DNA of 64,000 nt from a virus. The stretch lies in IMG/VR virus record IMGVR_UViG_3300034691_000044, positions 1 to 64,000 of that record; one strand, 5' to 3'. Positions 60,665 to 62,822 of this stretch are shown here, piece by piece (within the stretch, counting starts at the first letter, position 1; the number at the start of each line of letters is the position of its first letter). The translations under genes were made by a program, and so were the position numbers. The notes under the pieces are model-generated. The model had not been told where the DNA came from, made no database searches, and saw nothing but the letters and a program-made list of their open reading frames with translations.

Positions 60665-61133
60665 ATGAATGAACATTTGGCACTTATTTGTGGCAAATCC
60701 GGCAGCGGCAAATCAGCTTCTCTGCGGAATCTGCGTGATCCTGAGTCAGTTCTCTATCTGAACTGCGAAGCCGGCAAACGCCTGCCGTTCCCCGCCAAGT
60801 TCGTGCAGCGAACGGTGACCAACCCGCTTCAAGTCCGCGATGCTTTCGCCTGGGCTGAAAAGCAAGACCACATCAAAGTCATCGTCGTCGATACCTTGAC
60901 TTTCTGGCTTGATATGTACATCAGCCAGTTCGTTAAACCGGCAACTGACGGGCGCGCAGCCTGGGGCAACTTTGCTGAGTTTTTCAAGGCAACCATGCAG
61001 GTTGACGTTGCGAAGTCCACGAAGAAGGTGATCTTCCTCGCGCACACGCTCGACGTGTACAACGAAACCGCCATGGTCATGGAAACGGCAATCCCTGTCG
61101 CCGGTTCGCTCAAGAACCAAGGCATCGAAGCGT
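60665..61133 (+). CDS. ATPase, exon 1 (N4 gp44-like), gene interrupted by a group I intron
   Basis: ATG 60665 behind CTGGAG. 156 complete codons plus one base before the splice site. P-loop LICGKSGSGKSAS (about 4-16) and Walker B-like VIVVDTLTFWLDM (about 73-85), then VIFLAHTLDVYNE, a RecA-like ATPase (AAA_24 type) found beside SSB in N4-like and other phages. Without splicing, the frame reaches a stop at 61157-61159 inside the intron. The rest of the protein is encoded from 61920. Confidence 0.88.
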
Positions 61134-61919
61134 TGAGAATTGGCGCCCTCTGTCAGTAATGACAGTTGAATAACTTCTCTAATTGCTGGAATCTCTGCCA
61201 AGGTGTGCTAGCATACTTAAACAGACAATCAGCAGCGAAGCAAAAATGGATAAGCGATTAGTGACACAAGCTGAGTTGGCGGAACGCCTCTCTTACAACC
61301 CTGAGACAGGGCATTTAACCTGGATAGCTAAAGGGACTTCACGCAAAGTTGTTGTAGGTAGTAGGGCAGGTTCCGTTTCTAAACGGGGTCATCGCGTTAT
61401 TAACTTAAACGGCTTTCTTTATGCGGAGCACCACATAATCTGGCGTTTACACACAGGGCATTGGCCTATAGGCAACATTGATCACATCGATCACGATGAA
61501 CAGAACAATTGTTTTGTAAATCTGCGAGATGTATCAAAGGCCGTAAACAACAGGAATCAATCCAAGCGCATCGACAATACAACCGGGCATCCGGGAGTTT
61601 GGGTCAGTAAGCGCAACGGGGCGAAGCAATTCATGGCAGATGTGTTCCACGACGGGATTCGTGTTCATCGCTCATCTCATTATTCACTTGACGAGGCTAT
61701 TGCCGCAAGGCAAGCCAAGTTAATTGAGTTCGGTTTCCATTCCAATCATGGGATAGATAAACCGGTTTGAACGTTCAACGACTAGCCTTCGGGCGTAGGG
61801 CCAAGTGGCTCGAAACGGGAAGCACCCTAAAGGGGTGATGATATAGTCTGCTCTGCATGGTGACATGCAGCTGGATTAACTATCCGGGCTACGCTTAACG
61901 ACCGTAGCTGAACATTAGG
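61134..61919 (+). ncRNA. Group I intron containing an HNH homing endonuclease gene
   Basis: 786 bases between the two ATPase exons. Exon 1 ends in GCGU, which pairs with GCGC (61142-61145) to give P1 with the U-G wobble expected at the 5' splice site. The 3' core lies after the HNH ORF: TTCAACGACTA (P3/P7 region, 61775 onward), hairpin GCC-TTCG-GGC, CCAAGTGGCTCGAAACGGGA, and GATATAGTCTGCTCTGCATG with GACATGCAG (P7/P9 type). It ends in G (61919). Joining 61133 to 61920 gives an open frame, GIEA-Y-FSLVLMCQKV. Confidence 0.88.
61246..61770 (+). CDS. Intron-encoded HNH homing endonuclease
   Basis: 174 residues from ATG 61246. N-terminal LSYNPETGHLTWIAKG and AGSVSKRGHRVINLNGFLYA, HNH core EHHIIWRLHTGHWPIGNIDH, IDHDEQNNCFVNLRDVSKA and an AP2-like C-terminus (GVWVSKRNGAKQFMADVFHD). 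Cuts intronless alleles so that the intron is copied into them. AT-richer than the exons. No strong RBS, as is usual for intron ORFs. Confidence 0.9.
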   Translation: MDKRLVTQAELAERLSYNPETGHLTWIAKGTSRKVVVGSRAGSVSKRGHRVINLNGFLYAEHHIIWRLHTGHWPIGNIDHIDHDEQNNCFVNLRDVSKAVNNRNQSKRIDNTTGHPGVWVSKRNGAKQFMADVFHDGIRVHRSSHYSLDEAIAARQAKLIEFGFHSNHGIDKPV

Positions 61920-62164
61920 ATTTCTCCCTGGTGCTCATGTGCCAGAAGGTGAAGATCGACGACTTGGTTGAAGGCAGCGATTTGCTGAAAATCACCGACA
62001 AAGAACGTAACGTCGGGTTCAAACACGTCTATCAGACGGAAGTCACGAAGGACACGCTCAATACGCGCATCCGTGGCCCAATGATGATGTGGGCGGACAA
62101 CGAAGTCTTCATCGACAACGACATCCAGCTGGTTCTCGACCGGATGGATCAATACTATAACTGA
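61920..62164 (+). CDS. ATPase, exon 2 (N4 gp44-like)
   Basis: Continuation of the ATPase after splicing: YFSLVLMCQKVKIDDLVEGS, then VGFKHVYQTEVTKDTLNTRI and a C-terminal end VLDRMDQYYN. In the unspliced sequence this frame has an upstream stop at 61916-61918 and no RBS in front of a start codon, so it is not an independent gene. The spliced protein would have 237 residues. Confidence 0.85.
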
Positions 62165-62219: not shown

Positions 62220-62822
62220 ATGACTTTTGTACGTAAACCCGCAGGCGCCATGAGCATCTCCAGGAGAACAGCCGTTTACGGAGTAGGCATCAATGATGCC
62301 TATTACGTGAACCGGGACTGTCCTCTATACGCCCAGTGGAAAGCTGCCTTACAACGCGCTTGCTGTCCCAAGTGGCGGGCCAAGTACCCATGCTACGAAG
62401 GTGTGACTATTGACAATCGCTGGTTAAAATTCTCAGCTTTCCAGCAATGGGCAGACCTGCACAACTGGCAAGATAAGGCTTTGGATAAAGACCTGAAAGT
62501 GCCAGGCAATAAAGTGTATGGCCCTGACTTCTGTCTGTGGGTGCCACAACGTGTCAACTGCATGGTTTCACGGCCTTCTGTAAAGAAAACAGGATTACCC
62601 GTGGGGGTGGACGCCATAAAGAATCGCTTTATGGCCCGCACGCGCATTGACGGCAAAAACATCTACATAGGTTTATACGACACACCCGCTGAAGCGGCCA
62701 TTGCATTCAATGTGTTCAAAGCAAACTTAGTGCGAGAAGTTGCTCAGAAACAAGACACTGATGTAATGACTGCATTGTTGAATGTCGCAAACCTGATCGA
62801 AGCAGGCATCTTCTACACATAA
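62220..62822 (+). CDS. AP2-like putative homing endonuclease / DNA-binding protein, copy 3
   Basis: 200 residues; same family as the genes at 22081 and 41742 (GVGINDAYYVN, YAQWKAALQRACC, ALDKDLKVPGNKVYGPDFCL, then GLPVGVDAIKNRFMARTRID). Inserted between the intron-bearing ATPase gene and SSB, with lower GC than both. RBS GGAGGC. Confidence 0.75.
   Translation: MTFVRKPAGAMSISRRTAVYGVGINDAYYVNRDCPLYAQWKAALQRACCPKWRAKYPCYEGVTIDNRWLKFSAFQQWADLHNWQDKALDKDLKVPGNKVYGPDFCLWVPQRVNCMVSRPSVKKTGLPVGVDAIKNRFMARTRIDGKNIYIGLYDTPAEAAIAFNVFKANLVREVAQKQDTDVMTALLNVANLIEAGIFYT

Follow-up and report, generated by a model that had tools for sequence, protein, structure and literature searches.

The 64-kb window, by which we mean the whole stretch of DNA analysed here, forms part of a 73.6-kb virus record. 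The genes surrounding the locus are Schitoviridae-like (N4-like), and the nearest named relative among the sequences compared is Pseudomonas phage phCDa, a Shizishanvirus. Here, we describe an interrupted gene at 60665-62164 that matches the Sak4-like family phrog_124 in a profile search (E 1.9e-32). The AlphaFold model of the corresponding Sak4 from a sister phage (L012, an IMG/VR phage with 97% nucleotide identity) has a mean pLDDT of 88, and a fold search with this model placed the Sak4 structure 8rc5 of the PDB at the top, followed by RecA/Rad51-type proteins. The predicted gene product is an N4 gp44/Sak4-like protein, i.e. a RecA-like ssDNA-annealing recombinase. The original prediction of a gp44-like replication ATPase holds with respect to gp44; in place of a generic replication ATPase, Sak4-type recombinase is the more fitting name (phrog_124, 8rc5). 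Likewise, the gene had been placed next to ssb; ssb is indeed nearby, but a second, unrelated HNH gene (62220-62822, phrog_953) lies between the two. As anticipated, one RecA-like ATPase gene is parted by 786 bases that hold an HNH ORF, assigned to HNH_3, and a group I core, recognised by RF00028 and by covariation (Table 1). The spliced sak4 ORF encodes 237 aa.

Table 1. Features of the interrupted sak4 gene and of its intron, in window positions.
Feature	Position	Strand	Basis or remark
sak4 exon 1 (codons 1-156 and base 1 of codon 157)	60665..61133	+	phrog_124; contiguous homologues
P1 exon strand GCGU	61130..61133	+	pairs with guide 61143-61146
Group I intron (IA2, td-like), 786 nt	61134..61919	+	RF00028; empty alleles L012/phCDa; covariation
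P1 extension	61134-61136 with 61140-61142	+	retained in L176 via changed pairs
Internal guide GCGC	61143..61146	+	pairs with P1 exon strand
P2 hairpin CUGUCA-GUAA-UGACAG	61150..61165	+	L176 counterpart GCUGC-GUAA-GCAGC
Stop codon within intron, frame of exon 1	61157..61159	+	exon 1 read-through
P3 5' strand	61174..61179 (3' strand 61817-61822)	+	Rfam match; drawn pairing
P4-P5 domain	61183..61235	+	Rfam match; drawn pairing
HNH_3 homing endonuclease ORF (putative), 174 aa, between P4/P6 and P7	61246..61770	+	HNH_3 E 7.4e-10 (Pfam); phrog_99 E 1.5e-52
P7 5' strand GACUA	61780..61784 (3' strand UAGUC 61844-61848)	+	17-intron alignment
P8	61823..61837	+	two-sided changes in 5/5 pairs, 17 introns
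P9	61853..61870	+	17-intron alignment
P9.2	61888..61908	+	two-sided changes in 6/6 pairs, 17 introns
sak4 exon 2 (remainder of codon 157 through stop)	61920..62164	+	empty-site homologues

The intron splits codon 157 of sak4 after its first base. The predicted joining of 61133 to 61920 restores the reading frame and yields a gap-free alignment to the Sak4 of phCDa (87% nucleotide identity) as well as to that of L012, and a comparison with intronless homologues near residue 157, suggested as a check, found the residues encoded by exon 2 to be present in them. Unspliced, Sak4 would end after 164 codons owing to the in-frame stop at 61157. Natural empty sites exist: the sak4 gene of L012 is uninterrupted, and the intron is absent from sak4 of phCDa and Zuri. 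Of the 467 phage records in which Sak4 was matched, 464 have at least 80% of the match in one place, and Sak4 is in a single piece in all 60 records listed out of the 467. The insertion point falls within a well-conserved stretch of Sak4, G-I-E-[AS]-Y-F-S, in which E155 and G153 are conserved in 100% and F158 in 99% of 85 Sak4 sequences; in conservation the site ranks 32nd among 229 nine-residue windows of the protein.

Does the inserted sequence fold as a group I ribozyme? A match to RF00028, proposed as a further check, was found at 61124-61870 in an Rfam search of the region (E 5e-9), but its score of 41.6 bits does not reach the curated cut-off of 50, and an Rfam search of the whole 64-kb window at this cut-off returned no match. 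As a control, the T4 td intron, a known self-splicer, was searched in a like manner and scored 40.3 bits. Since the proven T4 td intron also falls short, we regard a score below the cut-off as a trait of the td-like subgroup; the curated value is a library threshold and no defining trait of group I introns. The 3' half of the intron is 77-81% identical to the td introns of T4 and relatives (BLAST), and the 3' core (P7-P9.2) belongs to the IA2 type, as in T4 td. We aligned 17 td-like introns and counted 36 pairs in P7, P7.1, P7.2, P8, P9, P9.1 and P9.2. In this alignment, 97.5% of the cells are paired and 23 of the 36 pairs show two-sided changes. The observed pairing and covariation values were reached by none of 500 shuffles, and pairing drops to 31-42% in slid versions. 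The fold of the 3' core is beyond chance and strong covariation backs its helices, with the P7 pairs, invariant in all 17 introns, counting as neutral evidence.

In the 5' half, pairings for P1, the P1 extension, P2, P3 and P4 are possible both in the window and in a second phage described below (L176); between the two, the P1 extension and P2 differ in a compensating manner. The GCGU/GCGC pairing of P1, the U.G pair at the 5' splice site and the final G of the intron had all been predicted and were confirmed (the G at 61919); the U.G pair and the terminal G recur in L176 and in a third phage, L190. The group I core helices with the P3/P7 pseudoknot are covered by the full RF00028 model, by the counted pairs of P7-P9.2 and by the paired P3 and P4. 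For P6 and P10, no confident pairing could be drawn in the intron. These features also bear on the idea that the HNH ORF merely split sak4 into two genes, the two polypeptides of which cooperate without splicing. A working two-piece ribonucleotide reductase that arose by HNH insertion is cited in PMC10448857, and a GTG-started ORF is present at 61931 in exon 2. However, a complete ribozyme with covarying helices, a P1 with U.G, a terminal G and the exact restoration of the frame in three phages (the window, L176 and L190) make genes in pieces scarcely credible.

L176, detected with exact patterns of the td core, carries a 785-nt intron at the same sak4 codon, 157. Splicing restores the frame here as well, though the length of 785 nt is not divisible by three. 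Its Sak4 is only ~45% identical to that of the window, its nearest named relatives being Zuri and similar Pseudomonas phages. Between L176 and the window, the intronic HNH proteins show 67% identity, and the non-coding parts of the two introns share 78% (5') and 85% (3') of their nucleotides, compared with 65.5% and 66.7% for the exons. In L190, an 808-nt td-like intron (2014-2821) lies at sak4 codon 100; it shares the AAGCGU 5' exon end and the GCGU/GCGC P1 with the window, its HNH ORF belongs to another family, and splicing again restores the frame. No sak4 intron devoid of an ORF was found in the IMG/VR and phage-record searches.

Occupancy of the codon-157 site is patchy: the intron is absent from the 97% identical L012, from phCDa and from Zuri, and present in the distant L176. 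For both of the introns at this site, the source is an uncultivated IMG/VR record. Across the junction, both intron alleles read GAAGCG^TATTTC, and the intronless L012 and Zuri read GAAGCC TACTTC in the same stretch. From L012 and Zuri alone, co-conversion of the flank looked convincing; it is not demonstrated, because the intronless L020 and Arace01 also read GAAGCG TATTTC, and we dropped it as proof of mobility. In phages with a free-standing HNH gene, sak4 is too diverged for resistance at the insertion site to be compared. Could the intron still splice and yet no longer be mobile, its HNH protein being inactive or otherwise employed and the sak4-linked relatives reflecting a shared ancestry of the region? 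The small number of same-site copies, two in the best 80 of 238 sak4 stretches of IMG/VR together with the 467 phage records, would agree with this. We nevertheless consider it very unlikely, as the HNH residues conserved in the family (H62/D79/H80/N88/N92) are present in the window's protein, neither the window nor L176 has a truncated ORF, the two introns are more alike than their exons, and the 97% sister L012 lacks the intron.

Where are the relatives of the HNH protein found? In INPHARED, the top-scoring matches are free-standing genes immediately 3' of an intronless sak4 (nine records checked), in a search without bias toward the sak4-adjacent family. Nearly all of the best IMG/VR matches are likewise free-standing and sak4-adjacent, L238 being another, a sampling that favours this family because the IMG/VR patterns were built from sak4-adjacent proteins. 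The nearest relatives outside introns, at the 3' end of intronless sak4 genes, are 38-46% identical in amino acids; scanning genome contigs for this HNH family yielded three distant matches. A tree of 48 proteins, from which L087 and seven other long rows were left out, places 17 free-standing sak4-adjacent proteins and the 2 intronic ones on one side of a branch (support 98/91), with the 29 others outside. An earlier tree gave a clade support of 95/90, and in it the sak4-adjacent L087 fell outside. Judged from these sequence relationships, the window's HNH protein is a member of a putatively sak4-dedicated endonuclease lineage that occurs both outside and inside the gene, and the same enzyme lineage is located outside sak4 in many relatives.

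Together, the occupied and empty sites, the same-codon intron of L176 and the HNH clade lead us to conclude that this is, with high probability, a mobile group IA2 intron in sak4 carrying an HNH endonuclease of a sak4-dedicated lineage. The intron with its structure and exact boundaries, its natural empty sites, its counterpart in the same codon of a distant phage and the clade are established; splicing, cleavage, homing and the priority of the free-standing state of the endonuclease are what we infer. The intron RNA would fold as a td-type ribozyme and should remove itself from the transcript, giving full-length Sak4. During co-infection, the HNH protein is expected to cut an intronless sak4 near codon 157, after which the intron would be copied into the intronless allele by recombination. 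Judging from its family (PMC5928155), Sak4 itself could perform this recombination.

In most phages the HNH lineage stands free at the 3' end of sak4, and in two it is housed in a sak4 intron. According to a review (PMC3984707), an intron may capture a free-standing endonuclease with which it has the target in common; a reverse route, in which an intronic endonuclease is lost and a free-standing one gained, has also been put forward (PMC10448857). The occurrence of one lineage inside and outside the gene is as the model of mobile-intron formation predicts, and our data fit capture, the tree giving no order of the intronic and free-standing states. We speculate that within one phage family the sak4 locus preserves the stages of this process, i.e. 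the bare gene, the gene with a dedicated free-standing endonuclease and the gene with an intron carrying the same lineage, and that codon 157 is already the cleavage site of the free-standing enzyme, which a td-like intron captured; we hold this to be possible, if not quite probable. Rather unlikely, in our view, is the opposite history, in which the endonuclease arose in the sak4 intron and escaped as a free-standing sak4-adjacent gene. It is compatible with a tree that unites both forms in one clade and gives no direction, but free-standing copies are numerous and varied (17 rows), compared with a single intronic lineage of two.

Beyond the intron, the sak4-ssb boundary is an insertion hot spot. 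The HNH gene at 62220-62822 is absent from phCDa, and a 67-68% identical copy occupies the same place in L019; this is its one close copy, the other relatives being weak. A kinship with the intron ORF of L190 was considered and is not firm (26-28% identity). A different HNH gene again is present in L012 (3686-4174), at the 3' end of its sak4; within the final 45 bases of sak4, the match between L012 and the window declines from ~97% to 60% identity, which looks like the end point of a recombination event. HNH or HNH-neighbourhood genes are also seen at the boundary in L080 (3710-4267), L087 (3178-3657) and L255 (2207-2680). Group I intron matches also occur away from sak4. The record of L176 contains a strong RF00028 match (L239, 4616-4872, 83.5 bits). 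It follows an ORF that resembles part of an N4-type RNA polymerase, and close to it is an HNH gene with 37% identity to that of the window. Such matches are also found elsewhere in records with a free-standing sak4-adjacent HNH gene (L178, L179, L181, L182).

In summary, the element is of a known kind, and its host gene is unreported for it in the open-access literature searched, where we found no report of a group I intron in sak4. With it, the phage's own recombinase gene joins the host genes of group I introns. The intronic and free-standing copies of one sak4-tied lineage are natural pairs for a direct test of endonuclease capture. For annotation, an interrupted sak4 would be mistaken for two genes, and the Rfam cut-off misses the intron of the window.

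The closest known system is the IA2 td intron of T4, whose 3' core shares 77% of its nucleotides with that of the window (the Salmonella phage td intron in L177 reaches 81%). It shares with the window an ORF before P7, a final G and an in-frame stop soon after exon 1, and differs in its host gene (td instead of sak4), its enzyme (the GIY-YIG protein I-TevI instead of an HNH_3 ORF) and its guide sequence. Among N4-like phages, Vibrio phage pVa5 (PMC5746245) also has a group I intron with an HNH ORF, in the nucleotide-metabolism gene td, thus in another gene and at another site, the comparison being by description only. Interrupted core genes are known from JA1 (PMC3670811), in which HNH genes split the gp24, DNA polymerase and gp43 homologues, and from ZC08 (PMC5418858), in which RNAP2 is split and the endonuclease group also stands free between the RNAP genes of G7C and EE36P1; unlike in the window, gp44/sak4 is not among these split genes, from which the introns there were inferred. 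As in collaborative homing and mobile-intron formation (PMC3984707), one endonuclease lineage stands free beside a gene, here with the intron-holding gene as its putative target; in the window, the endonuclease is already inside the intron. The window does not hold a collaborative pair, as the intron carries its own ORF and the free-standing HNH gene at 62220-62822 is of another family. Finally, Cbunavirus and Exceevirus (41-46% aa identity) and Efbeekayvirus (38%) hold, in the same neighbourhood as in the window, a free-standing HNH gene flanked by sak4 and ssb, and differ from the window in having no intron and an uninterrupted sak4.
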